From: Clostridium sp. AM58-1XD
Lineage (GTDB): Bacteria; Bacillota; Clostridia; Lachnospirales; Lachnospiraceae
Length of the DNA: 64,000 nt
NCBI RefSeq assembly: GCF_003464085.1
Contig: NZ_QSDR01000004.1
Span: 62,001-126,000, forward strand
Direction: 5' to 3'
Shown: piece after piece, positions 9,319 to 30,350 of the stretch
Layout of the letters: every line of letters begins with the position of its first letter
How positions within the stretch are numbered: position 1 is the stretch's first letter
Notes under the pieces: model-generated
The model's input: the letters and a program-made list of their open reading frames with translations, nothing else
The model's database searches: none
Told to the model about the DNA's origin: nothing
Position numbers and translations under genes: made by a program

Positions 9319-10785
9319 TCATGGGGTTGAATGACCTTCCTTTTTTGTAATCTTCCAATATCCCTTTCGATTGGAACCTATTCTCTCAATCATACCATTA
9401 TCCTGCAACGCTTTCATAAGACGCTTAACAGACATCAGAGATATTTGTAGTTTATCCTTCAATTCTGACTGCGTAATTGACGGTTCCTCTGTGATAATCG
9501 CAAGAGTTTTCGCCATATTGACTTCAAGGAAATCTCTCCGATTGGTTTCTCGTTTGGTTTCTTGATTAGTTTCTCGTTTGGTTTCTGGGCCAATTCCCAT
9601 ATCAAATGAGTAATCATTATCCAACGGCACAACAATTCGGAACACATCACCGTCTTCAAACACAGGGTCTTTTCCAGAATAGAACTTTGTATATTTGAAT
9701 AGCTTATGCACACCAGAGCCTAATCTGTCTGCTCTGCCAATATTTCTGAAGAAAGAAGCAATCAATGGATTCTTTGGATTTGGCTCCAGATTTTCCGGTG
9801 TAATGAATCCATTGCCCGCAGCTCTGCTTGCATTTTCCGTATACATCTGGTCTTTCTTTATCACCAGCTTCGCCGCATAAGAACTCGTGTATTCGCGATG
9901 CATAAGCGTATTGCTGACAATCTCTCTGGCAATGATATTTCTAAGACTGACTCTGTTTTCATCTTCCAGAAAGAACTTATCCGGTAAATGCTTTTTAATA
10001 AAATCCATAAGAAGGTCGAAGCTCTCGATTAGATTGGTTCGGACAATCTCACGGTCATCGTAGCGATCCACATTTACTTTTCTCACCAATGCATCTGTTT
10101 CATAAGCAGGGCAGACATTTTGAATCACTTCATCTTTTCCTAACAATAAAATCGCAGCCAGATTATAACCAGACTCTCCCGTTGCCACATCCCTTCCATA
10201 CAGGCCGGCACTTCTCAGCAATTCTTCGTCCGTCATATTCTCCCACGGATGGCTACCGCCGGCATGATTTACGGCCATCTGCCTGATTCGTGGAAGCAAG
10301 TCTGTTCTCAAATCATCAATCGCAGCATACGGATAAATCTTTCGTTCGGTAAAAATACTCTGTTTACGAATATACATCTGTGCAATCTGTGTCGTCGCTG
10401 TAACTTTTACATCTGCATCATTTACCCGGTCATAAATAACCTTCTTATAGCTGTGAACCTCTGCACTCGGCGGCACGTGGACATGAATAATCGTATGCCC
10501 TTCATATTCCAATATCTCTGGAGACAGATAAATTGTTGGAGTAAACAGGGCCGGGTTACTAATAACGGTGATGAAATTCTTCACCATGTCGGGTGCAGCT
10601 TTCGGTGGAACGCCATTGACCGTTCCGTTATTCAATACTCCCATAAATATATCTCCACCAAAGCGATTCAAAAAGGAGCATACACTCTCATAAGTATCTG
10701 ATTCTATACCATTCCCGCAACGTTTGAACTCTACAGCGACTGTTTCGCCAATTTTCAATATTGTTTTTAGGGCTTTGGAATCCAC
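9319..10785 (-). CDS. AlbA_2-domain putative transcriptional regulator / ATP-binding protein
   Basis: About 488 residues. GTG at 10785 is chosen because AAGGAGG sits 8 bases upstream; the upstream ATG at 10803 would overlap that ribosome site. Order of parts: AlbA_2 (Schlafen-like) DNA-binding domain at the N-terminus (GETVAVEFKRCGNGI, FLNRFGGDIFMGV), an ATPase-like middle (IIAREIVSNTLMHREYTSSY, GSGVHKLFKYTKFYSG), a short repeated linker (ETKRETNQ then ETKRETNR), and a C-terminal winged helix (ITQSELKDKLQISLMSVKRLMKAL). The family is common next to restriction and phage-defence genes, often taken as a regulator. It is the last gene of the island operon, 52 bases after the small 100-residue gene. 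Confidence 0.82.
   Translation of the reverse strand: MDSKALKTILKIGETVAVEFKRCGNGIESDTYESVCSFLNRFGGDIFMGVLNNGTVNGVPPKAAPDMVKNFITVISNPALFTPTIYLSPEILEYEGHTIIHVHVPPSAEVHSYKKVIYDRVNDADVKVTATTQIAQMYIRKQSIFTERKIYPYAAIDDLRTDLLPRIRQMAVNHAGGSHPWENMTDEELLRSAGLYGRDVATGESGYNLAAILLLGKDEVIQNVCPAYETDALVRKVNVDRYDDREIVRTNLIESFDLLMDFIKKHLPDKFFLEDENRVSLRNIIAREIVSNTLMHREYTSSYAAKLVIKKDQMYTENASRAAGNGFITPENLEPNPKNPLIASFFRNIGRADRLGSGVHKLFKYTKFYSGKDPVFEDGDVFRIVVPLDNDYSFDMGIGPETKRETNQETKRETNRRDFLEVNMAKTLAIITEEPSITQSELKDKLQISLMSVKRLMKALQDNGMIERIGSNRKGYWKITKKEGHSTP
9540..9590. repeat. imperfect tandem repeat in the linker of the AlbA_2 gene
   Basis: Two near-identical units of about 24 bp, built on GGTTTCTCGTTTGGTTTCTTG and its variant, encode the ETKRETNQ/ETKRETNR linker between the ATPase-like and winged-helix parts. 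Such a tract can gain or lose units in frame. Confidence 0.7.
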
Positions 10786-10836
10786 AGGATACACCTCCTT
10801 CAAAATAGTTTATCCACATTTCAACAGTCTTATTTC

Positions 10837-11139
10837 TTATAACAACACAATCATTCTATCAGCAACCAGCTGCACTCGTCCAGTTTCACACCCGCTCCCA
10901 AAAGAGCCATCACAAAGGTGAACCTCACGGAGCAGCATTGTCAACAAGACTGCACAAAACTCATAGTCTGCTTCTGGAAGTCTTTTCAGCTCCTCATCGC
11001 AGTTAATCAGTTCGGTAATCATGTAATCATCGCAATTTGTTATCAAATCTCCCAGCTGTTCAAGAGTCTTATAGTACACCGTTTCCCGAAAGTTACAGTT
11101 TGCATTGAGCTGTTCGAGAAGCTGTTTCTTTTTCTGCAT
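10837..11139 (-). CDS. small conserved hypothetical protein (DUF6508-like)
   Basis: 100 residues, mostly helical, rich in acidic residues and cysteines. The C-terminal half (LTMLLREVHLCDGSFGSG, ending in a VQLVADRMIVLL helix) resembles the core of the DUF6508 family, of unknown function. It lies 19 bases downstream of the SF1 helicase gene with weak AAGGAAA upstream of the start, and 52 bases before the AlbA_2 gene, so it is part of the same operon. A role as helicase accessory is only suggested by position. Confidence 0.6.
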   Translation of the reverse strand: MQKKKQLLEQLNANCNFRETVYYKTLEQLGDLITNCDDYMITELINCDEELKRLPEADYEFCAVLLTMLLREVHLCDGSFGSGCETGRVQLVADRMIVLL

Positions 11140-11158
11140 TTGTCATAGTAATGTTTCC

Positions 11159-13255
11159 TTAACACAAAAACTCCGACTCTCTACCATAGCTTGTGATATA
11201 TGCGCCTTTCTGTGCACGAGTAAGTGCCACATAAAGCAGACATTTCTCCGATGTAATAGATTCCGCTTCAGAAACGGCATCCGTTTTGTTAATAGCAGAT
11301 GCCAATGGAACAATGCGGCTATTTACGGCTGTAACAAATACATATTTGAACTCCAGGCCCTTTACACGGTGCATCGTGGCAATACGCAGGCCATCGAAGC
11401 TACGGTCGTCACTTTTGTTTCGTTTGATTACATAAGAACGAATGCCAGCTTTGGTAAACTGAGCGATATAATCATCCACCAGCTTTTTCGTTCTGGCAAC
11501 CATACAAATATCTTTAAGTGCAACGCCATTGCTCCTAAGTCGAGTTACCTCGCCCAGCAGATATTCAAACTCTGCACTGGCATCCTTAAATTTTTCCACT
11601 ACTGGCTTTTCACCGTGGGTCAATGATTGACACCTATCGCCCAAATCCGTATCTTCATCAAGATCATCAAACGCTATACCATTCAAAAGTGCAAACGCAT
11701 ATTGGCGGGTTTCTTCTGTGGTACGGTAATTAATTTTCAAAATGCTGCTGCGCCCCCGAACATTGATACCACACTTAGATAATGTTGGGTGGTTTCGATA
11801 TATTCTTTGGTGCGAATCACCAACAATGAAAATATCATTGGAATGTTCTTCACCAGCTAACGCACGCAAAAGCCGGTACGCATTATCACTGAAGTCCTGG
11901 CCTTCATCAACAATAATATTTGTATATCTGGGTCTGCCCGCTGCGGCAGCAAGAAGCTTGGTGCTTTCGTACATAGCGGTGTTAATATCTCGTATCTGAT
12001 TTTCTTTCATCAGGTTCTGATAAATTTCAAATACTTTCCAGACCATCATACGCTTTTTACGGTCAAGACGAGTTCCACGGCCATTGCGAGTTGCCTTTAC
12101 ATATTTTTCGAGAGTAAGGGCTTCCTGTGCAATTACAATACGATTCCATTCTTCTTCGTAAAACGCCTTATCAAAAGGTAAATTAACATTAGCAAGCAAG
12201 ACAGCCTTTTCCCACAGTGGTTCAATTTCCTCATCATATCCGATCTGAGCGGTAAACCCAGACACTTTCAGGAACTGATTGACCCAGGCATCAAGATGAA
12301 TCACTTCAATTTTTCTAAGTTCTTCCATTGAACAAATTTTACGGAGATTCTCTCGAATATCAGCCGCCAAATTTGCCGTATATGTTGTAAACAAAATTCG
12401 TTGTTGCCCTGTTAATGTAGAAGCCAAATGCTTTGCCCTGTGCATGGCAACAACTGTTTTCCCTGTACCAGCACCACCAAGTATACGAACTGCCCCGGAA
12501 TAGTTCTTACAGACGATTTTACGCTGTGTAGGGTGGAGAAATACACGCCACTTTTCAAGCGGTTCTGCCATAATTCTACGAAGTTCATCTTCACCATCAA
12601 TAACGACAAAAGATTTTAATGTTGATGGCGTATCTAATGCTGCCGCCAAATCTTCATTGGTTTCAGCTGTTGACTGTTCTTCCTCCGCCAGTTCCAACAC
12701 TTCAGCGATATCGAAGCCTTCTACAATCCAGGAAAGATATTCATAGACATCATGTGGAATAGACGGTTCTGCTTTGTAGAACTTATCTTTGTCCGAAAAA
12801 GCCCGTACATACTTAAGCTGTGCTTCTGGCACTCCAAGTTTCAGCAAGTCCTCATCCGTTGCTTTTACAAACAGTGAGGGGTTCGCAGGCGTTCTTATTT
12901 CCTCGGTAACACTCTTTACGTCAAACACTTGGATTGCACCGGTTTTATGGTTCACTTCACACCGCTTATTTGCAGCCCATTGATATGCTTCATCGTGGTG
13001 ATCCACCCATAAGAGCAGATAAACACCTGTTTCCGGTTGACGAACCACAATACCACGGTAGGTATCATCAATGCGTACAGAATAAATCTTCTTATCCAGC
13101 CCGGAAGAAATCTTTTCGTAGTAAATGCCTGATGAAGTTGGGTCATTACGGAATTTATTGACAAATTCCGTCACCTTCCCTTGTATCTGCCTTGGCAGCT
13201 TTGCAAAAGCAGTCAAAAAGTCAGAAGAAATTGCAACTTTTAATTTTTCTGTCAT
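11159..13255 (-). CDS. UvrD/Rep-type SF1 helicase with RelE/ParE-like N-terminal domain
   Basis: 698 residues. Residues 1 to about 95 have the pattern of a RelE/ParE toxin fold (SSDFLTAFAKLPRQIQGKV, YSVRIDDTYRGIVV, YLLLWVDHHDEAY). The rest is an SF1A helicase: Walker A GGAGTGKT (about 264-271), motif II IIVDEGQDF (about 450), motif IV/V region DSHQRIYR and INYRTTEETR, ATMHRVKGLEFKYVF, and motif VI YVALTRAQ (about 682). The ATG overlaps the stop of the DUF1998 helicase by four bases (ATGA), with AGGAGG upstream, so the two are translationally coupled. Such fusions occur in defence operons; whether the RelE-like part cuts or binds RNA, or only docks, cannot be seen. Frame is intact. Confidence 0.85.
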   Translation of the reverse strand: MTEKLKVAISSDFLTAFAKLPRQIQGKVTEFVNKFRNDPTSSGIYYEKISSGLDKKIYSVRIDDTYRGIVVRQPETGVYLLLWVDHHDEAYQWAANKRCEVNHKTGAIQVFDVKSVTEEIRTPANPSLFVKATDEDLLKLGVPEAQLKYVRAFSDKDKFYKAEPSIPHDVYEYLSWIVEGFDIAEVLELAEEEQSTAETNEDLAAALDTPSTLKSFVVIDGEDELRRIMAEPLEKWRVFLHPTQRKIVCKNYSGAVRILGGAGTGKTVVAMHRAKHLASTLTGQQRILFTTYTANLAADIRENLRKICSMEELRKIEVIHLDAWVNQFLKVSGFTAQIGYDEEIEPLWEKAVLLANVNLPFDKAFYEEEWNRIVIAQEALTLEKYVKATRNGRGTRLDRKKRMMVWKVFEIYQNLMKENQIRDINTAMYESTKLLAAAAGRPRYTNIIVDEGQDFSDNAYRLLRALAGEEHSNDIFIVGDSHQRIYRNHPTLSKCGINVRGRSSILKINYRTTEETRQYAFALLNGIAFDDLDEDTDLGDRCQSLTHGEKPVVEKFKDASAEFEYLLGEVTRLRSNGVALKDICMVARTKKLVDDYIAQFTKAGIRSYVIKRNKSDDRSFDGLRIATMHRVKGLEFKYVFVTAVNSRIVPLASAINKTDAVSEAESITSEKCLLYVALTRAQKGAYITSYGRESEFLC

Positions 13256-16200
13256 TCGTTATCACCTCCTACGATAGAGTCTGCCGGTGGCAGACTCTCC
13301 TGCTCGCTTTGGCGAAACAGGTTGACTGCATCAGCAGCATCAAACAAGCCAATTATTGTCCACCCCATTGTTTCTAATTTTTCTTTGTCACCGATTTGTT
13401 CTTCGGTTATGAACCCAATCTTTTTGTCAGGCCATGCAATCTCAACCGTTGCAACAACCTCTCCGTCATCGCCTTCTACTTCATAACCAATATCATCTTC
13501 ATTCGGCACAGGAATAACAAGACTCTTAACTGTATCCACAAAAGCTTTAGCTTCATCATCAAACAGCAATTCTCTGATTGCCTCCCATGCTCCGTTGCCA
13601 ACTGTATCAGCGCTTGTTACGGTATCAATATCAGAATTGAATGTCACCGGAAGTGCAAGATAATCCATTTGTGTCACGCCCGTAGAGGAAACAGCAATGA
13701 ATTCCCTGGCAAACTGCATGACATTGTAAAATTGCCAAAGCCCATTCCACTCGGCTTCATATTTATCAGTGCGCTTATCCTTTTCATCACTCAGAACCGC
13801 ACAAACAGCAACCGCACCATCTTTCTTTAATTCCGTTGCAATAATACCGGCATGGAACGCCAAATGAGCGTTGGAATTTCTTGGAATCCAGCTTCCATAA
13901 GCTGTTCCCGGAAAGACAAAGTCTGTGCTTGTAAAGTGTGTTTGCTCAATTACTGCGTCCATAATCGTTTTCCAATTGTTGAACGCCAGGCTATTGCCTA
14001 TTAGTTTTGGCTCAAGTAGTGAAAGAGAATACGCATAAGCCTGCCCCTCAAAAATTTTTTCTGCATCTGGCAGTTTCAAATATGCAATCAGCAAATCAAA
14101 AGCCGATAGTTTTGCGGGTTCGATTACATCCACACCAGCTTTTTTGACAATGTTCTGGTACATGACTTTCCCATAAGGCATTTTCTCTGCTTCTAATGTT
14201 GCCGTAGCATAATCGCCTTGGGGAACAAACACATTCTGGACATCCCTGAAGCTCAAAGACCAAACTCGATAGTTTCCGCTTCTACGGATCGCTTCACGCT
14301 TAACCGTATCATCAGCTACAATATCTTTGTGATACAAGAATCCATCTGTGAAAACTGCCACCGATTTGTGATTCGGTGCTGACACAGGCCAGAACATGAA
14401 ATCCGGTTTACAGGCAATCTTTACACCATCTGCGGCATCTAACAGCACCTGGGGTTCAATTTCCCAAGCCACATCGTCCACTTTGATATAATAGCTGTGC
14501 TTGCCATTACGAATGGTATCGCTGACATTAGCAGCACCCACCCTGGTACGCACTGCTTCCATGAAACGCTGTTCGAGTTCGCTGTCAAACAGCGGGTTTA
14601 CAGGGATGTCGTTAATCTTATTTATCTTCTGTACATTATCTTTGCCAGATAGTATCGACTTCAAAATGCGAATTGCTGTACTTCTTGAAATGTTGCCGAT
14701 TTGCTGGCTCTGACGGTATGCAAACAGGCAGTGATAACAGCCATCCTTTTGCGGATCGTCTTTGCAAGAACAGTTCTCCATCACATGAAGTGCCTTTTCA
14801 AAGATTTCAATTAAGGCATTCTTTTCGTGCATCAACTGTTTCAAATAGCCGGTGCCGCCCGGAACGGAATCATAGACAACCAAGTATTGTTTACGGTAAT
14901 TGGCATCCGCTACCGGAACCTCACTTACCGTTGCTCGCAGATGGTCAACATTTCCAAAGTATTCTTTCATGCCCAGCATAAACGCCGCCACGAAAGACTC
15001 CATCTTTACCGTAGAGGAATCCATCGTCGTTGCAGGAACCAGCAGACGAAGAATTTCCGTGCTAAACTCACGATATAGGAACAGACACTCCTCATAGGCA
15101 TCTGCCTGCATAATGGATGTCATTTTTCTTGTTTTACAGGCAAAGCTATGGTTTGGTTTCCCGTGTTCCGGTTGAATTTTTCCACAATACTTGCAAATTC
15201 GGAAACCTTTACGCACATCCTCCACGCCGGATACTGACAGTTTTTCGCCGGTCATATCACTTTCGCCAAAGTTTATTTCACGCAGCGTTGCCTTACGGAC
15301 AAACTCATAACCAAATGGAAATTCCTCGTTATCCATTCGATAGGCACTGGAAATATCGTGGTCTTCATCCACGTCAACTAACAGCTGCTTACAGTAAAAG
15401 ACATTGGAGCGTTCTTCCGTCTCATCATTAATCAAGCTCTTGGTATAATCCATGTTGGAGTACACCATCTGAACTTTCAGCATCGTGCGAACCTGACCGG
15501 CATCTGCCCAAGCAGGGCTGCCACACCGAGGGCAGGCAGAAGTGTTCTTGCCTGTTTCTTCAATCTGTGCATGGGAGCAATTCGGGCATAGACGCCACCT
15601 GGCTGTCTGCGCCGTAGTCACGTCAACCTGGTCAATCGTCAGCTTGCGGCCATCCGCATAAAAACTGTTATTTGGTGCGAACTCACTGATAGCCGATGAA
15701 GCAGACCGGCTATATTCATACACCATCTTCTCATACTTTTTCTTGCTGTCAGTCTGTATTGCCTGGTCATTCTCTTTGCGATACAGGATGGCACGGAGAA
15801 TAATGCCTGCTTCCGGGAACGCATAGTTCGGCAACAATCCTTCATCGGATAGGAAGTTGAAGATGTTCTTTTTACCAAGCTCCTGCAGTACACCAAGCAG
15901 AGCTGCTTCTTCGCTTTTCAGGTCTTTGATTTCTTCATCATAAGAGCTGTCTTTTGGCTTTGCCTCCAGCTCCTTAATCATGCCTTTCAGTGCTTCCACA
16001 CTGGTACGCAGTGCGTCCTGCTGCTTTTTCAAATCTTCAAAAGCATCCAGAATCTTCACATACATAGGACTATCGCCAGAACCTTTCCCACGCACAAAGT
16101 CCTGCAGTTCATCTCTGGAACTCTGGTCAAGGTATGCGGCAAACATCTGCATGAAAGAGTTCAGCTGTCTTGCCTGTGTACTCTGCACATAATCAAGGAA

Positions 16201-19200
16201 ATTGAACGGAAATATATCCGCCGGGCGCTTGTCCAGTTTGTTCAAAATCACGCCGACTTTATCCGGGATTGCACCATCAGGAATCCCTTTTTTTACCCAA
16301 GAATCAAGGCAGAAGGCGACAAACTGCCTTTCCAACACAGCGGATGCACGAAGGAAGATTTTGGGCGGTGTTACATTACCGGCAATCATATCCAGCGGGT
16401 CAGCATAGAAATAGAGGTCATGTGGTCTCGCGTTTGCCACCGCCAATGTCAGGGCATTGCCATCCTTACGGCCGGCACGACCGGTTCTCTGCAAGAACTG
16501 GCTCTGTGCAGGCGGCATGCTGCAAAGGATAACCGTCGAAAGATCGCCAATATCAATACCCATTTCAAGCGTCGGGGTACAGGAAAGTACATTCGGGTCC
16601 CAAATCTCCTGGGTATCTTTCTCACGCTTAAAGTCGATTTCAAGCTGTTCACGGTCAGGACGCTCCAGCAAACCGGTGTGTTCTCTTGCATTGATACGAG
16701 CAAGGTTACCGGCACTGTATAACCGACCATAATAGTTAATCTCAGAAGATCGATATTCCTCCAGGAAGCCACCGCAGTTGGCTCTTTGGCAAGGCGCACC
16801 TTCCCAAAGCTCCGCATTAATGGCAGCAATAGCATAAAGGGAGCCGCAGCTTTCACAACGCATCTGAACCACATTGTCGGTAATGAACACACGCTCTTTG
16901 TTCAAACCATATACTTTATAATCCGCTGAAGAAGGCAGGGCAGCTACCACCTGCTGTTTTGTTGCTTCTTCCAAAATAAACTTGCTGATTGCACGAAAAT
17001 TGCTTTCTTCAACCATTACCTCTGTGCAGCAAGATACAATCCAATCCACATACTTGTTGGCAGATGGCGCATCAAATTCAAGCGACTTTCTACCGCCGCC
17101 AATATGCTCGGCAATGAAACGAGGTGTATTACGACCAGACTGGCGGCCAGGCAGCCAGCGGTTTCTATCATTTGACAGCATATAGCCATTGCCGTTGCCA
17201 ATCGTATATTCATCAAAAACGTGATCCTCAAACGCACCGTTGGTACGCATCAGGTTCAGATAGCCAAGCACCATGCGCTGGAAAGACTTGATGTTTTCCG
17301 TAGTCAATACACCAAGCTCATTAACAGTTCTTTCCTGCACGGCATCAGCAATCGCCACAACATCATCCTCGGCAAACGAGAGAACAGAACAGCTGGACTT
17401 TTCAAGGGTTCGTCCAATCTTACCAGCAAGTCCATACTCCAGCATGATTTCGTATTTGATACGCTGTTCCACTTCATAAACCAGAATCTGGGCTTGCCTG
17501 TCTGTGCCAAGCTTACGGTTCTTTACCATATCCTCATACGCATTTTTCCAGGTCATATTCGGTGCAATAAAGAAGCTGACAAACTGCTCCAGTGTCATGT
17601 GTTCATGCCAATACTTAATAAAATCGTTTTGGAAATCTGTCAGTGACAGTCCTGCGCCAGCTTCATTGCAATACTTCTGAATAGCGGTACGCAAGCCAAA
17701 ACGCCAGGTGCGGGAATTAAAGAAACCTGCACGATGGGCAGCATCCTGCACATTATCCGAGAATGCCAGCGTTTTCTTATCATCATTAAACCGAGAAGCA
17801 AACATCTGAGATAGGCTTGCGCTGATTTCTGTTGCGCTTCGTAAACCCATCAGCGAAAGACCTCGGCGGCTGCCACAACAAGGGCAGACATACTGCTTAT
17901 GATCTTTGGAACCGGATGTTTTAATCGGATTCGGAATTAACACATCCACCATTTTAGCACCGCAGCTTGGGCAATCGCCGGTGCCGTCTTCCCCCAACTT
18001 CACTTGTAGACAATCAGGCAAATTCTGCCCGGAATCATGCCGGCAATATGTTCCCTATGGGAATGAGGGAACAACATTACAATCTTATCGTCCGCACGGA
18101 AATAAAGGTTGTAGAACGCATCCAGATTGACCATCGTGGCATTGCTGCGCTCGTTGAGGATAGATACCCAGCCGGTAATACCGCAATCACGGCAGTTTAC
18201 AACCGGCAGATATTGTTTTGCCTGCTGCTTATTCAAATCATTTGCAATCCCATAATTGATTTCATCTGGGTCAACTTTGGCAACCAAACGACGCAGCTCT
18301 CGCATCCATAACTGCACCTGAACGTTGAGAAATGGACGCAGCTTGCCCGCCTTTCCGGTACGAGCATGAGAGATTAACGCAAACAATGAGTTGATAAGAA
18401 CAGTCGGGTCTTGCAGAGCTTTCAGTTCCGGATAATGGGCAGACAATTCTTCAGCTATTTTAGAAACCTGATAATACGTACCACCCGTCAGATTAAGTAC
18501 CGCCTGCATGAAGCTGTGATGCACCAGTTCCTCACTAAGTTCCATTCTGCCTTCATCGCTCAGCGCATCAAGCGTAAAATTGGGGAACCAATCTTGTACT
18601 GCGTGGTTCAGATATGAAGACAGTTCATCCTCTGCTGCCAGCAAATCAAGTTCAGCCACCTGGTCGGCAGACGGCAAGGTGAACTCTGTAATCTCTTTGT
18701 CCTCAAAGAATTCCTGTGAACTCAAACGGTCTTCGGTAATCACCGCGTCTTTATCAAAGGGTTCGCCAAAGATTTCTGTAGCATACTCCAGTATATTGCC
18801 GTTATTGTCTTCAGAACCCATTGTTGCCGAAGTACCAATGCAGCACAAATATCCGTCATAGATTCCAAGACGGCGTTTCAAACGGCGAAGCAGACAAGCC
18901 AGATCGGTACCCTGTGCACCGTCAAAAGTATGCAATTCATCGACCGCAATATATTTCAGTGTTTCCGGGTCATTGTCCCGCCACAAAAGAGCATCTTTGG
19001 GGCGAACAAGCAGATAGTCGAGCATCTTATAGTTGGTCAGCAAAATATCCGGTGCGCTGTTCAGCATGGTTTCATGGTCCGTAATAACACCATGTTCACC
19101 CATCATACGGGCAGGGGTATGCTCTTGTCCTCCGACATACATACCAACAGTCACATTGCCACGCAGCTCATCGCTGCCATAGATGAGCTCGGCAATACGC

Positions 19201-19779: not shown

Positions 19780-19787
19780 GCCAATGA

Positions 19788-20912
19788 TTACTTTATTATA
19801 TATGCATCTTTAATCTTCTTGAAAGTAGAAGATTTCATGAGATACAAATTGCCTTTACTTCTTGTCATAGCGACATAAAGCTTATTTATTGTTGAGGTGG
19901 CTATCCCTTTCGTCGTAAATTCTTCGTCATCCATATTGTCGAACTTATCTGTAAGTATTACGCACACGCTACTAAAGGTATCTCCTTTAGAATATGACCA
20001 ATTCATAGCGTTAAACTTATAATCTGCTGCTTTCTGAATGACGAGTTTCAGAATATCAGGATTATCAAGTATAGCTTCAGCTGAATCATCACACCAAAGA
20101 ACTTCACCTTGATTGTTATTAGCGGATTTTATCTGTATGCCCAGCTTTTCTTTCACATAATTGCATACCGAAGTAGCGCATCGTCTTGATTTTCTTAATG
20201 TTTCTTCATCAACTTCAAACCCAGATTTTTTTAAGGTGGCAACAAAATCGCTGTAACAAACTTCAACCTTTTTGATTTTAAATGGTTTGCCGGAATTATT
20301 TGTTCCAGATACAGAATGCTGATAATAATCTCCAACAAGTAAGACACTGTTTAAATGCTTGGACAGTTCAATTATCAAATCAAAATCATGTTCACGAAAG
20401 TCTTGAAACTCATCAATAAAGATTTGGTCGTAGAACAAGTTCAATCTTGCTGCACCTCTTTTCACAAGAGATTCCCTACCTTTCTTCACCTGCATTGCAA
20501 GTTCAGATAAGGTAGCACAATAATACTGTTTACTCTTGGTTATGTAGTGCTCAAGTTTATCCTTCGGAGTATATCTTCTGTTTGCGATCATCCCCCCTCC
20601 TGAGATCGATATTTGCTTAGGTGGAGGGTCAATGATACAAATGCCATTACTTGCAAAAGAAGAACACTTAAAATGCTCAGCGATACTTGGTTCGTATGGA
20701 TTTATCAAATGTCGATACATAAAAGAATCGAACGTCATAATAGTTGTCAGTTCTGGCACAGAACCAAAAGCGTCGCACAGTTCATTTCGGATATTGTGGA
20801 TGTTTTCATTCGTAAATGCGAGCAGCAGGTTTCTTTTCGAGGGATTAATCATATGGCAGATATGATATGTTTTTCCTGAATCCGCAACAGCCAATATTAC
20901 TCGTTTATCCAT
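19788..20912 (-). CDS. compact UvrD-like helicase (GajB-like)
   Basis: 374 residues, well below the roughly 490 of the characterised Bacillus cereus GajB. The Walker A is unusual: AVADSGKT (residues 8-15) instead of GxGSGKT. Motif II is IFIDEFQDF (about 167-175). C-terminal motifs are short but present: SYSKGDTFSSVCVIL and YVAMTRSKGNLYL (motif VI). Its start lies inside the last codons of the ATPase-TOPRIM gene (16-base overlap), the same arrangement and order as gajA-gajB in Gabija. In Gabija, GajB is thought to sense or unwind DNA ends and support GajA nuclease. Whether this short protein is a true helicase or only an NTP sensor is open. Confidence 0.75.
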   Translation of the reverse strand: MDKRVILAVADSGKTYHICHMINPSKRNLLLAFTNENIHNIRNELCDAFGSVPELTTIMTFDSFMYRHLINPYEPSIAEHFKCSSFASNGICIIDPPPKQISISGGGMIANRRYTPKDKLEHYITKSKQYYCATLSELAMQVKKGRESLVKRGAARLNLFYDQIFIDEFQDFREHDFDLIIELSKHLNSVLLVGDYYQHSVSGTNNSGKPFKIKKVEVCYSDFVATLKKSGFEVDEETLRKSRRCATSVCNYVKEKLGIQIKSANNNQGEVLWCDDSAEAILDNPDILKLVIQKAADYKFNAMNWSYSKGDTFSSVCVILTDKFDNMDDEEFTTKGIATSTINKLYVAMTRSKGNLYLMKSSTFKKIKDAYIIK

Positions 20913-22477: not shown

Positions 22478-22491
22478 ATCTGTCCTTCTCC

Positions 22492-25400
22492 TTACTTCCC
22501 GTATTTTTCTTCAAAAAATTTCCAGGCGGTTTCGTAGTCCTGCTCACGATCACAGCGGTCAAATGGTGCAATATATTCAATGGTGCGCTCTACCGGGCCA
22601 CCGGGCATGGTGTCATCCGTGATGGTACGGTAAAACTTTCTACCTGCCGGGGCATCCTTGACTTCGTTTTCCCACGTTATTCGGTCAAAACCAACACCTG
22701 TCAGACTGCGATTGTTCGTGAATACAATACGTCCGTTGGCATCGTACCACGTGCCTGCTTCATAACTTTGAAGCACTGGAAACTGAATACGATAGATGGT
22801 TTTGAGCTGCTCCAGTGTCATACCCAATGCCATTGCAGTTAAAACATCAATTTCGATAAGCGCTTGACGACGCTCATAGTCTGTACGTATAGGTATATTC
22901 CAATTCCATTTTGAAGTTAAGGATGAGAATTTTTCTGGTCGAAGTCGAGGCTCATTCTTAGCCCACGCTTCGTTTATTGCGTTTGACTGCCAACACTCTC
23001 TCCACAGCTCAGCATATTGAGCGGTTAATGCATTCAGCAATAATCCTCTTAATGTAATAGGGTATGCTTTTTTTAAATCAAACAATGGGAACAATTTAAT
23101 TGTTCCATATCCAACATGATTCTTACCAATAATTTTCACAAGAAAGTCATACGGTAAACTATTCTCACATGCACATAAACAAGATAGTATCCGAACATCC
23201 TGAAGTGCTACACCAAACAATGTGCAAATAAATGTTGATTTAGGCGGTAACAAGCACGCAGTTAATGTTCGTTCAGACATTGTGCCAACAAACTCCCGAT
23301 TCACAAGAGTATAATTGGCGTTAAACTTATCTCCCCACGGTGTCCCTGGAATTTTAGAGATAAAACTTTCCTTGTCGCAAGCTATGGTGTATTTTGTTCT
23401 TGGATAGTAGTATTCGTTCAATTGCGTCAAATCTATTGTATCATAATCGCTATTACTTATATATTTTCGGCGAACTGTTTGAAAGTAAGGATTTCCAAGG
23501 CTACAATATGCACCAACAAAAATCGTGTCATTGTTTGATTCTGGAAAGCAAATGTTTTGTGTAAGCACTCCATTTTTTTGCGAATTAGTTTCATCCCACA
23601 TTTTTGTTGTTTGAATCGCAAGTCCTGATGTGCCAACTGTTTCTGTCTGTTCTGCAAACTTTTCTAAAACTTCCATTTGTGTGGATTCATGTAAAGAAGG
23701 TAGCTTTGTTTGACGCCATTCTGTATTACCTTCAAACACAGTAGCAAATGCTTGTAATTCTTTCTTTGTAACATGGATTATTCGCTTGGGATGCCCCTGA
23801 ACATTCCATTCTCCATTATCATCTTTAATACCCGGAATGGGCGCAAAAATGTCACCTTCGTAACATTGTACGATACTGGAAACATCATACAAATTACAGA
23901 TGGTGTCGAAAGAAACCATCTGTGGACTACCATACACATTCAAACTGAATTGTGTATGGTGGTCCACTTCGAGAAATAATTTTCGCTCATTCGCAAACAT
24001 AAAATGTTTGCGAAGTCTTGTGTATAATTTTTCCCGAAGTACACCACCCTTCGGGTCGTCATAGACACCCTCTGGATGAACGAACGCGCTAACACCGCAT
24101 TTATTATTGAAGTTCCATGCCTGCGGCAAAAAGCACTTAAACAAATTAGTTTGCTGGCCTTTCAAATCCGCGTAGTTTTGTATCGCATCTAAAAACGACA
24201 GTTCTCCTGCCAAAGATTCATATTCTGCAAAATATAGATCATAAGTGCTTCGATTCTCCATTGCAGCTTCTCTGTTCTGGGCGGTTTGACTTGCATTCAG
24301 TTTTTTTACTGCAAACATCGGATTTTTATCTGCCAACACACTTTGTTCATTCCATTGTATTTTTATCCACGGCGGGTTTCCTATAACCAAATCAAACCCT
24401 CCACACTTTTCAAACAAATCCGCAAATTCTAGTTCCCAGTGCATGAACTTGTTCTGCTCGGTAATCCCACGCACCAACGCCAGTCGTGGAAACAACTGAC
24501 ATAGTTGGTCAAGGTTTACTTCAGTATTTTCCCAGATATTCTCTTCCTCATCATCAGAGCCTTCATCAAAGAGCTTCACCTGATGGTAATCATTTGGGCG
24601 CTGTGTCTGTATTACACCGACCAAGATTAGGTTCATATCATTCAGAAATTCGCTTCTCGAAGGCAGCATATCCGCCTGTTCAATCGGCCAAAACCACAAA
24701 GAGCACCAATAATCCATAGCAAACTTCAAACGGGCATAAGGGCCGGCATTCTGTGCGTGTTCGGATTTATAAATAATATGCAAAAATTTGTCTTTTTCAC
24801 GGATGCTGGTCATGGAATCCTTACTGGAATCCTGATGTCCATACACTGATAAGGTGCTGTGTGTATTGTCTTCCAGCATCTTTCGATTCCTGATTTGTGC
24901 TTTCCACAACGCATTGATAGTTTTTGATAGGGCTAGCAGTGTTTCGGTATCATCCTTGGAATAAGGTGCTATAAACCGTTTGTTCCAGTCCGCCATTTTT
25001 TTGATGTTTTCCGGTTCCAGCGATTTAATCACCTTGTCAGTGTAACTGCACATTCCTGGATCACCAAGCAGAAAATGGAAAATTCGCTTGGGCAGCATCT
25101 TCTTTGCATTAAGAGGTGCTCGCTCTGGTTCTTTTTCATACCACCGCAACCCTTTGCTCGTTGCCTGTACATCCGCCACCCGATAGCACTGCCGCCTTGC
25201 GCCAATCAGAGAGTTACCATTTACAAGCTGTGTTCCAAACCAAGGCACAAAGCCACCCTCATAAATGGTATTCAGCCACAGCGATACCTCTGCAAGTTCC
25301 ACAGCAACCGGATTCAAGTCAATACCGTACACATTTCGGTCAGCAATATACATCTTGACCTTTTGCAGCTCATTGAAGCGTTTTTCATAGCTGATGATGT

Positions 25401-27216
25401 CGCCGGTTTCTTTTTCCTTGCGGGAAATATATGCTTCGGCAAGCTGGTTGATCGCTTCATTCAAGAAAGCTGCGCTACCCATAGCAGGTTCACAAATAGT
25501 CAGTTTTAGAATATCATCGGCTGTTTTTCCCTCCAGCAATTCTTTCAGGGCATACTTAACCAGGCACTTTGTCAGAACTTCCGGTGTATAATAAGAAGCG
25601 GACTTCTCACGCTCACGACCGGCAAGGCGATAGATAAAAGTACCTTTTTCATACATTCGCAGCTTGCCTTTTTTCTCACCGGTTTCATAGCGCACACGCT
25701 CGTCCTCGGTGTACTGATCAAGCTCGGCTTCCGTAACAAAGTAGCCAACATCCAGCTCGTTAAAGTTGTCGCCTGCACGCTTTACTTCATACAAGTCGTG
25801 CTCGGCAATAAAGCCACGATAGGAAAGCAGGGCTTCATATACAGCGCCCATCTGGTTGATGCCCAAATTGGCATAGGAAATACGCCCACGGCGGTCATTC
25901 TTTTTGCCGGTGGACTTTGTTAAGCTCATCAAATCAATGATTCGCAGCATACAGCTGTTGCGCAGCCTTGCCGCAGTAATCATCTCGGTATATTCGGGGT
26001 CAAAGATATGTGCCTTCAACGGTGCAATCAGGAACATATCATGCAGGCTGTCGGAACCGGCAGCCCGCCGCAGTTCTTCCTCTGTTTTCGGGTAGCCGTC
26101 ATAAATCAGCTCATAGAGCTTTGCCAGTGTATCGTGCAGATAGTAACCGTTTCCTACCTCTGCAACATCCTCCCGGATATTGTCTGCAATGTCACGCAGG
26201 CTTTCCAGGGAGTAACCGGAGTAATAGGTCTGCGCTTTGATCGGTGCATATCCAAGTTCAGGGCGGGATTCAATAAACAGCACAAACAGCATACGGTACA
26301 TATACCGCAGGCATTCCAAGGTCAGCTTGCCGGCATCCACCGGGTCAACTTCCAGGTCACGTCCAAGGCGGTGCGCCATATCGTAAAGCACTTCATTGCC
26401 GAGCAGTTCAATGCTCTCTCTCAGTGCATATTTCAAATTTTGAGAAACACCGGAAGCGTTTTTATGGCTTTGCTCGTCCAACTCGTCCAATAAGATTTTG
26501 CCATCGTCCGGGCAAAGAGAATCTTTGTGAAGCAAAACTGCCATCGCCTGCAAGGTGGTGTTTTCCAAGCGGGAGAAGATTTCTTCCAGTTCAAATTGCA
26601 AGTAACGCTTTTCGTTCCACTTGTTACGGTCAATCAGCGCAATCTGGTTCATGCTGATAAATACCAAAAAGCGAGGAGGTTCTGCAGAACCAAACAGAAT
26701 CTTCGTCGCCAAGTCCTCGTTCGGCATTTCATTCAAAATGCCTTTATACAGTGCTCCGTTCGCATCTTCCTCAACATCAGCCGAGTTAAAAGCATAGCTT
26801 TCCATAATGCCGGTATCGGTTTCTTTTGAAGCTGACAGAATAACCCAAAGTAACGGTGCGCCATTGCTCTTAGTCATTTCCAGATAGACCGGTACCGTCA
26901 GGGTATCGTTCACTGTTATTACTTCCGGTTTTGCTTCAGGGTAACCCAAGGTAGCCAGGTAGCTATCCGCCAAGGTGCGGATATTGCTTAATGCGTGCAA
27001 GTTCATAGAGGAACGAACAAAACGATCATGTGCAGCATAATACTGTCTGGCGTTTTGTCGCAGCAACGACCATGGCGTGTGGAATTCTACCGCCTCTTTG
27101 GCCGCAGCGTTCCAACTGCTGATGGTGGAACTTGCGTTTTCTTCAAACACCGTTGCAAAATAATGGTTGGTGTAGTATTCGTTTTTATTGGTGATACCTG
27201 TTAAATCAATGCTCAT
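22492..27216 (-). CDS. giant N6-adenine DNA methyltransferase (Eco57I/PglX class, DrmMI-like)
   Basis: 1574 residues from ATG 27216, which overlaps the stop of the SNF2 gene as ATGA; the longer frame to 27291 would run into that gene. SAM motif I reads CEPAMGSAAF (about residue 575) and the catalytic motif IV NPPW (about 947), typical of N6-adenine methylases. A long N-terminal helical region and a C-terminal target-recognition-like region surround the core, giving the size seen in BREX PglX and DISARM DrmMI. No specificity subunit (HsdS) or restriction subunit (Res/HsdR) is nearby. With the adjoining SNF2 helicase this is the drmD-drmMI order of class 1 DISARM, in which methylation marks self DNA. 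The frame is intact over 4.7 kb. Confidence 0.87.
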   Translation of the reverse strand: MSIDLTGITNKNEYYTNHYFATVFEENASSTISSWNAAAKEAVEFHTPWSLLRQNARQYYAAHDRFVRSSMNLHALSNIRTLADSYLATLGYPEAKPEVITVNDTLTVPVYLEMTKSNGAPLLWVILSASKETDTGIMESYAFNSADVEEDANGALYKGILNEMPNEDLATKILFGSAEPPRFLVFISMNQIALIDRNKWNEKRYLQFELEEIFSRLENTTLQAMAVLLHKDSLCPDDGKILLDELDEQSHKNASGVSQNLKYALRESIELLGNEVLYDMAHRLGRDLEVDPVDAGKLTLECLRYMYRMLFVLFIESRPELGYAPIKAQTYYSGYSLESLRDIADNIREDVAEVGNGYYLHDTLAKLYELIYDGYPKTEEELRRAAGSDSLHDMFLIAPLKAHIFDPEYTEMITAARLRNSCMLRIIDLMSLTKSTGKKNDRRGRISYANLGINQMGAVYEALLSYRGFIAEHDLYEVKRAGDNFNELDVGYFVTEAELDQYTEDERVRYETGEKKGKLRMYEKGTFIYRLAGREREKSASYYTPEVLTKCLVKYALKELLEGKTADDILKLTICEPAMGSAAFLNEAINQLAEAYISRKEKETGDIISYEKRFNELQKVKMYIADRNVYGIDLNPVAVELAEVSLWLNTIYEGGFVPWFGTQLVNGNSLIGARRQCYRVADVQATSKGLRWYEKEPERAPLNAKKMLPKRIFHFLLGDPGMCSYTDKVIKSLEPENIKKMADWNKRFIAPYSKDDTETLLALSKTINALWKAQIRNRKMLEDNTHSTLSVYGHQDSSKDSMTSIREKDKFLHIIYKSEHAQNAGPYARLKFAMDYWCSLWFWPIEQADMLPSRSEFLNDMNLILVGVIQTQRPNDYHQVKLFDEGSDDEEENIWENTEVNLDQLCQLFPRLALVRGITEQNKFMHWELEFADLFEKCGGFDLVIGNPPWIKIQWNEQSVLADKNPMFAVKKLNASQTAQNREAAMENRSTYDLYFAEYESLAGELSFLDAIQNYADLKGQQTNLFKCFLPQAWNFNNKCGVSAFVHPEGVYDDPKGGVLREKLYTRLRKHFMFANERKLFLEVDHHTQFSLNVYGSPQMVSFDTICNLYDVSSIVQCYEGDIFAPIPGIKDDNGEWNVQGHPKRIIHVTKKELQAFATVFEGNTEWRQTKLPSLHESTQMEVLEKFAEQTETVGTSGLAIQTTKMWDETNSQKNGVLTQNICFPESNNDTIFVGAYCSLGNPYFQTVRRKYISNSDYDTIDLTQLNEYYYPRTKYTIACDKESFISKIPGTPWGDKFNANYTLVNREFVGTMSERTLTACLLPPKSTFICTLFGVALQDVRILSCLCACENSLPYDFLVKIIGKNHVGYGTIKLFPLFDLKKAYPITLRGLLLNALTAQYAELWRECWQSNAINEAWAKNEPRLRPEKFSSLTSKWNWNIPIRTDYERRQALIEIDVLTAMALGMTLEQLKTIYRIQFPVLQSYEAGTWYDANGRIVFTNNRSLTGVGFDRITWENEVKDAPAGRKFYRTITDDTMPGGPVERTIEYIAPFDRCDREQDYETAWKFFEEKYGK

Positions 27217-30053
27217 TGCGATACCCCCATCAGAACAGACACGATCCGAATGTATGGATTGTTCTGTATTGTCAAAGTCTCTTTTACCCAATTCATAAAC
27301 TGGTCGAACAGTTCATCCACACGGCGCTCCTGCTCTTGCAGTTTGCGCTCCTGTTCAAACAGTGTCAGCTGATAATACTCATGGTGCTTCTCTTGCAGGG
27401 AAATCAGCTTATCCACTTCTTCATCTAACATAGGGGTCATCTCAACCTGATATTTTTCATAATGCTCGTCCAAGTGCTGCTTGGCATGGGCAACCACATC
27501 CGCCAGAAGGCCACTTGCATTCGCAATTTCTGCTTCACCGATGCAGTTGGTGTTCGGAATCTTCTCGTTACTAAGTCCAGCTTTTTGAACGACCTCGTTC
27601 ATTGTCAGCACTTTTACAAATTTGCCATTCTGGTAAAACAAACCAAACCATTCATCAACCAGAGGGGTCGATTTCAGATTCGGCATACTGCCGGAGACGA
27701 TATAAATGCTTTCGCCCGCAGCAAGTTTATCGGGTAATCCAATCACAGGCGCTTCACCACGACCAAACAGCAAACCGGCTTTGTCATTTACCCAGGAAAG
27801 AACCGGGTGCAGTTTCCAAAGGTATTGCGTGGAAGGCCATGCAGATTCATCCATGTTCTTCTGCATACTGTTACGCATCTGCTCCATGCAGAAAGCTTTA
27901 TCATTGGATACACGAAGCGTATCCCCATGCGGCAATGCTTCTTCCGGTACAAGAGCTTTCAGACGGCGAAGCATATCCGGAGTCAGTTTAATATCCAAAC
28001 CAGAAACAGTCTGGAGCTTTTCAACCGGATGGCTCTCAGTCTGGTTCAAAAAGTCAAGCGCCTGGTAGAGATAGTCCACATCAGTGAACAGAGTGTCATC
28101 TTCCACAATTGTGGATTCTTTTGTTTCGGCATTTTCTGCTTCACTTGCCGCAGACATCAATGTTTCAAACGGATCAAAGTCAGCTTCGCTGGCATTCAAA
28201 GTCTTTTCAAATGCAGCTTCGTCAGAACCGCCCTCGATAGCCTCGGAAACAACAAGCTCTTCGTCCTCTACCGTGAATTTACCAAGGAGCAAAGATGGGT
28301 CGCCAATGTTTTTGAGTGCTTGTTCTTCTTTGGTAATCAAGATTTCAATGATACGCATATCACCCTTGATTTTCTTGTTGTCGCTCTCAATCAGCATATA
28401 GCGGATATCAGGACGCTTCTGCTGACCATAACGGTCGATACGACCATTTCTCTGCTGGAATACCATCAGGGACCAAGGAATATCGAAGTGAATCAGTCGA
28501 TGGCTGAGGTAATGAAGATTCAAGCCTTCGGAGGCGACATCAGATGCAACCAGCACACGAACTGGTAACTCGGTACGACCAAAATCTTCGACAATCTTCT
28601 GCTGTTCGGCATCACTCATGCTGCCGGAAATTTCCTGAATAGCATTTGCTTTCACACCAAGATCCGCACGAAGTTTTTCGGCCAGATACTTCATGGTTTC
28701 AATACGCTCTGTGAAAATGACAACACGGTCTCCGGTGTCATTCGGGTTCCAGGCGTAATCTTTGCTGCGGAGAAGTGTCAGCAACTTCTGATAACGGGTA
28801 AAGCTCTCCGGTGTGATTTTTTCAAGTGCAGCTTTCAGTTCTTCCAACAGACGAATGTCTTTGATATCGTCTACATTATATTTTTTATAGAGTTTTTTCA
28901 ATCTGGCATCAATGCTCTTGATGCAGGCAGCTGGGCTGGAAAATAGAGATTTCTCCAAACTGGTCTTGAACAACTGACCGGTTCCCCTGGTCTTACCTAA
29001 ATCCATTTCAAGCTGCATTTCCGCAAATATATCAAACACATATTCTTCTTGTGCTGAAGCGTTGCAGCGCTCCAGGGTAATCTTTCTTTCCAAGAACGAA
29101 CCGCTTACCTGGTCTTTTACATCTTTCTTGAAACGACGGATACAAAGTCCCTTAATATGTTCCGGTGTGTAATTTTCCGGATCAGCAATCGCAGTTGGGT
29201 CAAGCATATTCATCAAAGAAGCGAAGCTCTTAGCCCGTCCATCGTGCGGTGTAGCCGAAAGCATAATCATCGTGTCGCTTCGGTCAGCCAACAGCTTTGC
29301 CAAACGGGAACGCTGCGCCTGACGGTCGCCACGCTCGGCAACATTCTGTGCTTCATCAATGACGATAATATCCCAATAGGCATTTTCCAGGTGGGTGCGA
29401 TATTCAACATCTCGCTTCAATGTATCAATCGAAACAATGGTTTTATCATAATAAAAAAACGGATTGTAATTGGTCGGCAGACTGGCACGAATCTTTTGGA
29501 TTCTGTTTGAATCAAGACGCACTAAAGGAATGGTGAAACGGTTCCACATTTCTTTTTGGAACTGCGTCATCATACTTTTTACGGTAACAACAAGAATTCG
29601 TTTCCCTTTTCCACGGGCAATCAGCTCGGACATCAAGATGCCCGCTTCCAAAGTTTTACCAAGACCAACGGTATCGGCAACCAAAATGCGCTGGCGAGGA
29701 CGCTGCAAAGAAAGTTTTGCCGGGTCAAGCTGGTAAGGCATCAAGTCCATTGCGGCCTGATGACCGATATGTAAATTAGCATCTGTCGGTATCTTCTGAC
29801 GCCATTGACTCTCCAAATACAGCAGAGTTCTTTTATAAAACGGCGAATTGTCCGGAATTAGCTTAACTTCGGCAGGGTTCACGATTTGAATTTGCTCCAA
29901 ATCTGTCAGAAAGATCGCTTCTTTATCCTTCACAAGCGGAGAAATGCCAATGCAGTATAAAGCCTTGTTGCCAAGACTATTTGTTTCAATTTTTTTGACC
30001 ATCCATTCTTCGTCACGAATGATGGTTCTCATTCCGGGAGCAAAATCAACCAT
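27213..30053 (-). CDS. SNF2-family DEAD/DEAH helicase (DrmD-like)
   Basis: 946 residues. Walker A variant DTVGLGKT (about residues 126-133), motif II VIDEAQN (about 234), SATPHDG motif III, and a helicase C half with VVIFTERIETMKYLAEKL, VASDVASEGLNL and QRNGRIDRYGQ (motif VI, about 540). The C-terminal third is helical and specific to the subfamily. AAGGAGA precedes the ATG at 30053. It is the first large gene of the operon, 50 bases after the HTH gene and coupled (ATGA) to the methylase gene, as drmD-drmMI in class 1 DISARM. Likely an ATP-driven DNA translocase that remodels or scans incoming DNA. RapA-like SNF2 proteins are an alternative, but the context favours DrmD. Confidence 0.87.
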   Translation of the reverse strand: MVDFAPGMRTIIRDEEWMVKKIETNSLGNKALYCIGISPLVKDKEAIFLTDLEQIQIVNPAEVKLIPDNSPFYKRTLLYLESQWRQKIPTDANLHIGHQAAMDLMPYQLDPAKLSLQRPRQRILVADTVGLGKTLEAGILMSELIARGKGKRILVVTVKSMMTQFQKEMWNRFTIPLVRLDSNRIQKIRASLPTNYNPFFYYDKTIVSIDTLKRDVEYRTHLENAYWDIIVIDEAQNVAERGDRQAQRSRLAKLLADRSDTMIMLSATPHDGRAKSFASLMNMLDPTAIADPENYTPEHIKGLCIRRFKKDVKDQVSGSFLERKITLERCNASAQEEYVFDIFAEMQLEMDLGKTRGTGQLFKTSLEKSLFSSPAACIKSIDARLKKLYKKYNVDDIKDIRLLEELKAALEKITPESFTRYQKLLTLLRSKDYAWNPNDTGDRVVIFTERIETMKYLAEKLRADLGVKANAIQEISGSMSDAEQQKIVEDFGRTELPVRVLVASDVASEGLNLHYLSHRLIHFDIPWSLMVFQQRNGRIDRYGQQKRPDIRYMLIESDNKKIKGDMRIIEILITKEEQALKNIGDPSLLLGKFTVEDEELVVSEAIEGGSDEAAFEKTLNASEADFDPFETLMSAASEAENAETKESTIVEDDTLFTDVDYLYQALDFLNQTESHPVEKLQTVSGLDIKLTPDMLRRLKALVPEEALPHGDTLRVSNDKAFCMEQMRNSMQKNMDESAWPSTQYLWKLHPVLSWVNDKAGLLFGRGEAPVIGLPDKLAAGESIYIVSGSMPNLKSTPLVDEWFGLFYQNGKFVKVLTMNEVVQKAGLSNEKIPNTNCIGEAEIANASGLLADVVAHAKQHLDEHYEKYQVEMTPMLDEEVDKLISLQEKHHEYYQLTLFEQERKLQEQERRVDELFDQFMNWVKETLTIQNNPYIRIVSVLMGVSQ

Positions 30054-30104
30054 AACGCTGTCTCCTTGTCTTTTGTTCTCTCAGCAAATATGAATCAAAT
30101 ACAA

Positions 30105-30296
30105 TCAGACATCTGATTTACGATATTTGCCACTCTTTACTCTTGCGTCAGCTGGTTTTTCTGCATCAGCTGGAATAATCCAAGAATAGCCTATCTTCTG
30201 TGCTCCGGGGATTCTGCCCGTCGTACACAAGGTTTGAATTCTCCGCACAGAGATTTCCCATTTTTCGGATGTTTGCTTGATAGATAAGTATTCCAT
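30105..30296 (-). CDS. small helix-turn-helix DNA-binding protein
   Basis: About 63 residues from ATG 30296 (AATGAGGTGGATT upstream); a longer frame to 30383 would include the promoter and is rejected. Contains an excisionase/MerR-like helix-turn-helix: EYLSIKQTSEKWEISVRRI then LCTTGRIPGAQKIGYSWIIP. A PADAEKPADARVKSGKY tail follows. Such proteins commonly lead restriction or helicase operons in Firmicutes. As first gene after the island promoter it is a plausible operon regulator; excisionase activity is less likely because no integrase is present. Confidence 0.75.
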   Translation of the reverse strand: MEYLSIKQTSEKWEISVRRIQTLCTTGRIPGAQKIGYSWIIPADAEKPADARVKSGKYRKSDV

Positions 30297-30350
30297 AATC
30301 CACCTCATTGCGGCTTTTTCGCCGTTCTTCGTGCACAATATGTCAAAGGT

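Follow-up and report, generated by a model that had tools for sequence, protein, structure and literature searches.

What kind of defence system is encoded by an operon in which a Gabija-like gene pair lies among the genes of another system? The question arises from a minus-strand run of nine open reading frames (ORFs) in a 64,000-nucleotide stretch of Clostridium sp. AM58-1XD, a member of the Lachnospiraceae (assembly GCF_003464085.1, contig NZ_QSDR01000004.1, positions 62,001-126,000); this whole stretch is the window. An original prediction, made from the sequence alone, had described the run as a DISARM-like operon and a candidate new system in which the Gabija-like pair serves as effector. 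The analysis reported here points instead, with good probability, to an ARMADA type II operon that has a separate Gabija module seated between its armB and armC genes and a gene of the Schlafen AlbA_2 type downstream of armD. Proteins of the window were matched to PADLOC, Pfam and NCBIfam families at E <= 0.001, and the PADLOC lists for operon proteins comprise the best 25 families per protein. Read 5' to 3', the run consists of an SNF2 helicase, a methylase, an ATPase-TOPRIM protein, a UvrD-type helicase, a DEAD-box protein, a Helicase_C/MZB protein, a RelE-UvrD protein, an ORF of 100 amino acids (aa) and an AlbA_2 protein, listed below with a small helix-turn-helix (HTH) ORF upstream.

armA, 27213..30053, minus strand: BrxHII/DrmD-like SNF2 helicase, 946 aa (PADLOC DrmD, 323.5 bits).
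armB, 22492..27216, minus strand: PglX/type IIG-like adenine methyltransferase (PADLOC REase_MTase_IIG PDLC03614, 884.9 bits).
gajA-like gene, 20897..22477, minus strand: OLD-family ATPase with TOPRIM domain, 526 aa, between armB and armC.
gajB-like gene, 19788..20912, minus strand: short UvrD-type helicase, 374 aa, overlapping gajA by 16 bases.
armC, first piece, 18000..19622, minus strand: DEAD-box part of a DruE/YprA-like helicase, 540 aa (PADLOC DruE1, 181.4 bits; Pfam DEAD, 79.2 bits).
armC, second piece, 13252..18021, minus strand: ORF of 1589 aa in another frame, with Helicase_C, MZB/DUF1998 and a Vsr-like motif (PADLOC DruE1, 211.6 bits).
armD, 11159..13255, minus strand: N-terminal RelE-fold domain and UvrD helicase, 698 aa.
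Small ORF, 10837..11139, minus strand: 100 aa, 19 bases after armD, with no family in PADLOC, Pfam or NCBIfam at the threshold used.
AlbA_2 gene, 9319..10803, minus strand: Schlafen-type AlbA_2, HATPase_c_4 and winged-helix protein, 494 aa, an accessory gene after armD (Pfam SLFN_AlbA_2 50.6, MarR 30.1, HTH_24 28.1 and HATPase_c_4 26.7 bits).
HTH_17-like ORF, 30105..30383, minus strand: just upstream of armA (Pfam HTH_17 24.9 bits, under the 27-bit cut-off).

ARMADA type II was described as ArmA-B-C-D in a 2025 preprint by Bell et al. There, ArmA is a BrxHII-like SNF2 protein, ArmB is PglX-like, ArmC is YprA-like with a predicted C-terminal Vsr nuclease, and a RelE-like domain is fused to the N-terminus of the UvrD helicase; the genes keep a "strict gene order", and in Escherichia coli all four are required for a protection that is non-abortive (PMC12458937). 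The window displays the same four genes in the same order, from BrxHII-like SNF2 protein through PglX-like methylase and DruE/YprA-like helicase with MZB domain and putative Vsr-like motif to RelE-UvrD fusion, and shares the catalytic residues. The RelE fold of the ArmD N-terminus emerged from fold comparison; searches of Pfam and PDB with this sequence gave sub-threshold matches only. All eight residues mutated by Bell et al. in ArmA-D are conserved. ArmA keeps the Walker A lysine and the Walker B aspartate and, aligned over 965 columns, shows 46% identity to the protein at the ArmA position of an E. coli plasmid locus; ArmB retains NPPW and the glycine of the S-adenosylmethionine site. The window departs from ARMADA II in two ways: Gabija genes break up the gene order, and armC is in two pieces. 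Thus the claim of one minus-strand operon with the listed gene types was borne out by ORF, PADLOC and Pfam matches and by the ArmD fold comparison, whereas novelty was not: this gene order already has a name. Judged by its predicted proteins, the backbone is that of ARMADA type II rather than of DISARM or of a novel system.

Relatives of the locus support this assignment. A scan of species genomes with the C-terminal piece of armC detected four loci, and searches with ArmD recovered strong relatives (at least 56% identity) in 7 of 397 genomes from the family of relative G001, 2 of 350 from the family of G002, 2 of 384 from the order of G002 and, at class level, 3 of 391, with one further distant relative at 35%; G001 and G002 recur across these searches. 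Further genus and family searches with ArmD (24, 3, 23 and 6 genomes) added no loci. The total is 14 distinct genomes besides the window, including G003 and G004 from the armC scan. The order SNF2, methylase, DruE-like, RelE-UvrD holds in 12 of 12 readable clostridial loci (window, G001, G002, G003, G329, G324, G318, G090, G298, G307, G770 and G1118), that of G003 lying across two contigs; the loci of G004, G623 and G1224 are cut by contig ends and were left out of the count. The order A-B-C-D also holds in nine of ten ARMADA loci on plasmids of other phyla. The tenth, on a Cylindrospermopsis plasmid (L080 12444-29117), runs C-D-A-B, against the strict order. In a tree of ArmC (24 rows without ARMADA I, outgroups on long branches, uneven letter make-up flagged), the window falls with the ArmC proteins of E. 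coli, cyanobacteria and alphaproteobacteria, and a Druantia III-like DruE and G858 lie separately. The distant G858 locus (L067 4890-15674) has a three-gene layout, with a 1177-aa protein lacking any Pfam or PADLOC match, a DruE-like protein of 1705 aa and a RelE-UvrD-like protein of 707 aa, and may represent a different DruE-ArmD system. Exact-word scans of viral contigs found no relatives of GajA or ArmC.

Two known systems share parts of this backbone. With DISARM class 1 the window has in common a DrmD-like SNF2 helicase and a DrmMI-like methylase, and to that extent the DISARM-like description was sound, but the DrmD match (339.5 bits) lies below the NCBI cut-off of 610, the helicase ORFs have weak DrmA matches only, no DrmB is among the families listed, and the window, with a DruE-like helicase, contains neither separate DrmA and DrmB nor a PLD gene. 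The predicted absence of a PLD nuclease was correct, since none of the nine operon ORFs has a PLD family match in Pfam. Druantia contributes a resemblance in one protein: both pieces of ArmC find their best PADLOC matches in DruE models, in keeping with the earlier likening of the DUF1998 helicase to DruE, but the partners in the window are ArmA, ArmB and ArmD, and no other Dru component appears among the PADLOC families of the operon proteins.

The genes that interrupt the backbone have the composition of Gabija, an OLD ATPase-TOPRIM GajA followed by a UvrD-type GajB, and domain and motif content identify the pair, seated between armB and armC, as a Gabija of short form. GajA matches PADLOC GajA PDLC00102 at 289.9 bits over residues 3-523 and the OLD-like TOPRIM family of Pfam at 64.3 bits, with Walker A, EEPENH and TOPRIM E/DND motifs present; GajB matches PADLOC GajB PDLC00148 at 144.1 bits over residues 1-354, with GKT and DEFQD motifs. 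The PADLOC models have the same short length and are matched almost end to end. These matches uphold the earlier view that the defence operon is composite and encloses a Gabija-like pair. The tandem arrangement and nearly full-length matches are those of Gabija; the short proteins and the position inside another system's operon set the pair apart. GajA also matches 27 PDB sequences, none named GajA, and GajB matches none.

How tightly is the pair built into the operon? ATGA overlaps join armA to armB (27213-27216) and armC to armD (13252-13255), as had been read at the methylase and SF1 starts, with armB starting at the ATG at 27216 and its ORF reaching further, to a TTG at 27291. The "16 bp between" the GajA- and GajB-like genes is in fact an overlap of 16 bases (20897-20912). 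The statement that most genes are joined by overlaps holds for these three junctions but fails between GajB and armC, where a gap of 165 bases means that overlaps are not continuous through the operon. Neither do overlaps argue against two independent systems, as had been proposed, because a short-form pair standing alone on an Enterobacter plasmid overlaps by 16 bases as well. It and a short GajA-GajB pair on a Kurthia plasmid were the two free-standing contexts read, and neither has an ARMADA gene listed within 6 kb. GajA belongs to a common family: of 7996 candidates scored, 1547 proteins reach E <= 1e-30, and the best 120 of these are 72-98% identical. On plasmids 1690 records match GajA at E <= 1e-30, and 1620 of them cover at least 80% of the query. 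Among 299 Lachnospiraceae genomes four matches reach E <= 1e-50, one close (60%) and the others 29-31% identical; the absence of GajA from 64 genomes of the genus of G002 is uninformative.

Evidence on whether Gabija is a guest comes from the interval between armB and armC, termed slot A, in the 12 readable clostridial loci.

Window: GajAB.
G001: PHP/ATPase protein (PADLOC candidate PDC-M49A, 941.4 bits) with small ORFs.
G002: 460-aa protein (PDC-M36A, weak, 23.5 bits).
G003: AAA-ATPase/PDDEXK_9 protein.
G329: AlbA_2 protein with HATPase_c_4.
G324: two ORFs with no Pfam or PADLOC family.
G1118: one ORF with no Pfam or PADLOC family.
G318, G090, G298, G307 and G770: 2-51 bases, no gene.

The slot is filled in seven of 12 loci (six of 11 without the window) and empty in five. 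A neighbourhood survey, as the original prediction had proposed, found GajA/GajB in the slot of none of the 11 relatives and a Gabija pair elsewhere in the fetched stretch in two. When accessory genes were compared all against all, a single weak match linked slots A, between the ATPases of the window and G001 (66 aa, E 7e-4). On the ArmC tree the window falls in a six-locus clade (100/100, starred) in which all six slots are filled, each with different contents; the slot-filled label needs three changes, two of which starred branches impose, a result equalled in 3 of 500 label shuffles. Nine plasmid loci run A-B-C-D; in eight of them slot A is empty, and in the ninth, from Haematobacter, it is filled. 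The Haematobacter slot (L078 11728-12576) holds a 282-aa ORF with an HExxH motif. A 2-kb E. coli armB-armC junction matches 519 of 5426 genomes, many closely related; among the 40 records listed, 39 span the junction, 38 of them uninterrupted and one with an IS3-family element within the span. Since relatives have either no gene or unrelated genes in the slot, Gabija is not a required ARMADA part, and the pair looks like exchangeable cargo rather than a core ARMADA effector.

Genes after armD and before armA also vary, but these could be ordinary defence-island neighbours, so a slot inside the operon makes the stronger case for cargo. After armD the survey covered the window and eight relatives, each listed below.

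After armD, window: 100-aa ORF and AlbA_2 gene.
After armD, G298: GajAB, 59% and 52% identical to those of the window.
After armD, G307: another, longer Gabija type (GajA 683.4 bits; GajB ORF short, near the contig end).
After armD, G090: Hachiman (HamA 240.5 bits, HamB 762.8 bits).
After armD, G003: GmrSD/HEC-05.
After armD, G318: 999-aa helicase with weak type IV-like matches.
After armD, G1118: TPR protein.
After armD, G324: 104-aa zinc-ribbon ORF.
After armD, G770: ordinary alcohol dehydrogenase.
Before armA, G324: Lamassu LmuB/LmuC.
Before armA, G318: AlbA_2-like protein by similarity to that of the window (24%).

The armC gene of the window bears both on the question of an effector and on that of activity. 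The DUF1998 helicase of the original prediction is present but is only the C-terminal three quarters of ArmC, the DEAD-box ORF at 18000-19622 having been overlooked; the first piece corresponds to the N-terminal and the second to the C-terminal part of DruE models, and the two lie in different frames and overlap by 22 bases (18000-18021). The first is about 82% identical to the N-terminus of the single-ORF ArmC in L001-L003, and the whole protein would have about 2,120 aa. ArmC is a single ORF of 2103-2135 aa in ten of the 11 clostridial relatives with a complete ArmC, and in the eleventh, G770, it is split near the C-terminus. AGGAGG precedes the ATG of the first piece, and the TTG of the second has no ribosome site. 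Given the single ORF in most relatives and this missing ribosome site, armC looks like one gene with a frame break. A natural two-gene ArmC was considered, that of Tsukamurella also being annotated in two pieces, and is less likely for the same two reasons. The break falls in a cysteine-rich (CxxC) stretch. That armC is not intact bears on activity, not on kinship: with ArmC broken, ARMADA may be inactive in the window, barring a sequence error or cooperation of the two pieces. Near the C-terminus the motif (K/R)(P/A)D(F/Y)...(F/Y).DG..(Y/F)H...D..(K/Q)R occurs in 16 of 16 aligned ArmC proteins; we take it to be Vsr-like, and Pfam gave no significant match there. With this conserved motif in ArmC, no effector need be missing from the operon.

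Several observations weigh against the reading of an ARMADA II operon with independent Gabija cargo. With ARMADA type I absent from the tree, it is gene order and ArmD, not phylogeny, that carry the type II label, and the E. coli plasmid reference was called ARMADA II from the description in the paper (a Zorya-Druantia-ARMADA array), not from an accession. Because all four genes are needed in E. coli, the split ArmC may mean that the window copy is dead. The predicted model of the ArmC C-terminus is poor (mean pLDDT 44), too poor for a fold search. The 20 plasmid GajA matches listed, of 1690, are 30-34% identical to the GajA of the window, the free-standing Kurthia and Enterobacter pairs thus reaching only about that level, and its single close relative among the 299 Lachnospiraceae genomes (60%, in G298) directly follows the armD of an ARMADA II operon. 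This GajA subfamily may therefore prefer ARMADA, and two cases are too few to say.

The domains, together with PMC12458937, suggest how the ARMADA II operon with its lodged Gabija module might work. ArmB would mark self by methylating host DNA, its variable C-terminal half determining the target; the motors ArmA, ArmC and ArmD would act on unmarked or replicating phage DNA, with the Vsr-like nuclease domain of ArmC as the likely cutting effector. The Gabija pair, a GajA ATPase-TOPRIM nuclease with a GajB helicase, would form a self-contained second layer, probably sharing transcription of the operon.

A tentative alternative, possible at best, is that the two layers are coupled, the slot cargo being held back while ARMADA works and released once a phage disables it. 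According to a 2026 NAR paper, BREX and BREX-related (BR) systems have nuclease modules in or beside the core operon (OLD-TOPRIM including Gabija, GmrSD, PD-(D/E)XK and Schlafen), and backup release is proposed for OLD/TOPRIM, GmrSD and Schlafen modules (PMC12839542). The arrangement is like that of the window, although the host system is BREX or BR rather than ARMADA. Several cargo classes of ARMADA match these auxiliary or backup effectors, including Schlafen proteins with kinase-like domain and winged HTH (PMC12839542), cargo recurs inside the operon in clostridial loci, and the one close GajA relative in Lachnospiraceae also adjoins ARMADA. Coupling is harder to reconcile with the slots that are empty in five of 12 clostridial and eight of nine plasmid A-B-C-D loci, with cargo that differs each time, and with short GajA/GajB pairs that also occur alone.

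A second alternative, rather improbable, holds that the locus is a relic: ARMADA would be dead, and all that still functions would be the Gabija pair and the AlbA_2 gene, maintained through the promoter of the old operon. The frame break in armC and the missing ribosome site of its second piece would fit, and core ORFs are also split in G318 (armA), G307 (armB) and G770 (armC), but a single break could be an assembly error, the eight residues mutated by Bell et al. are all present and the window's remaining core genes have open frames. Finally, the Gabija-like pair as fixed effector of a new DISARM-like system in place of DrmC, a model favoured by the close packing of armB and gajA-gajB and the lack of a PLD gene, is very improbable, as nine of 11 clostridial relatives have no Gabija pair in the fetched stretch, none has one in the slot, the core is already named, and ArmC has a conserved Vsr-like motif of its own. 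Both outcomes that the original prediction had named as refuting it, a core order with an existing name and GajA/GajB missing from most homologous loci, were observed.

If the lodged Gabija module of this ARMADA II operon is exchangeable, how might the operon change its parts? Evidence comes from G298 (L055/L056) and G090 (L053/L054), which are 89% identical in ArmA, 96% in ArmB 201-700, 93% in ArmC 1-1700 and 92% in ArmD, but 38% in ArmB 1001-1500 (38-39% across 1001-1599), and which carry Gabija and Hachiman, respectively, after armD. A milder form is seen between E. coli and Klebsiella, 79% identical in ArmB 1001-1500 against 98-100% in most other parts. Across 120 pairs of 16 loci, which share sequences and are not independent, the Spearman correlation with ArmA identity is 0.93 for ArmB 201-700, 0.93 for ArmC 1-1700 and 0.91 for ArmD, against 0.35 for ArmB 1001-1500. 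This segment, which lies after the NPPW motif, varies independently of the core and is probably the target-recognition part. Slot A of G001 (L001, about 6489-6692 and 7497-7691) contains remnants of a second, diverged ARMADA, ArmC 195-262 (68 residues) and ArmB 1503-1599 (97), at about 56% identity. Such remnants suggest recombination between operons. They do not show joint movement of cargo and ArmB segment: G298 and G090 differ in the segment, and slot A is empty in both.

These observations can be gathered into a speculative and unlikely proposal, in which ARMADA II of gut Clostridia would be a docking platform: recombination among related operons would swap the stretch from the ArmB recognition half through slot A. 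The motor chassis would stay, methylation specificity and the plug-in effector (Gabija, PHP-ATPase, Schlafen, PD-(D/E)XK or others) would be renewed, and this effector, acting as backup, would fire when ARMADA is inhibited.

Around the operon, the HTH_17-like ORF upstream of armA is a possible regulator. A different, homologous small HTH-like ORF (38-55% identical; HTH assigned by eye) precedes armA in G002, G1118, G090, G307 and G324, five of the 11 clostridial loci with readable upstream DNA (that of G003 is cut), and is a possible ARMADA regulator. A scan for promoters and terminators returned 30 promoter-like sites against 34.1 expected and 25 terminator-like sites against 17.2 expected, and was not used. 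Flanking ORFs that we take from their sequences to be spoIVB-like and recN-like, with other ordinary genes, make the setting look like a chromosome of a member of the Clostridia. A protein with AMP-binding, carrier and condensation domains, like a nonribosomal peptide synthetase, adjoins the island at 3586-6996.

The ARMADA core, Gabija and embedded effectors in BREX and related systems are already known. The available passages of PMC12458937 mention no cargo between armB and armC, its main text has no occurrence of Gabija, and the main text of PMC12839542 has none of ARMADA or DISARM; no report of cargo within ARMADA was found in titles and opening abstract lines of the papers listed by searches of open-access literature (without supplementary files). 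The 2025 description of ARMADA is of four genes in strict order; what the present loci add is that in Clostridia its operon also houses exchangeable genes, including several known defence modules, which extends to ARMADA what was described for BREX. G298 and G090 constitute a natural experiment, with near-identical motors, a different ArmB recognition segment, and Gabija in one and Hachiman in the other. If cargo and ARMADA are coupled, these loci would be a source of new effectors, and the slot contents of G324 and G1118, which have no Pfam or PADLOC match, and of G002, with a weak match only, would be the candidates.

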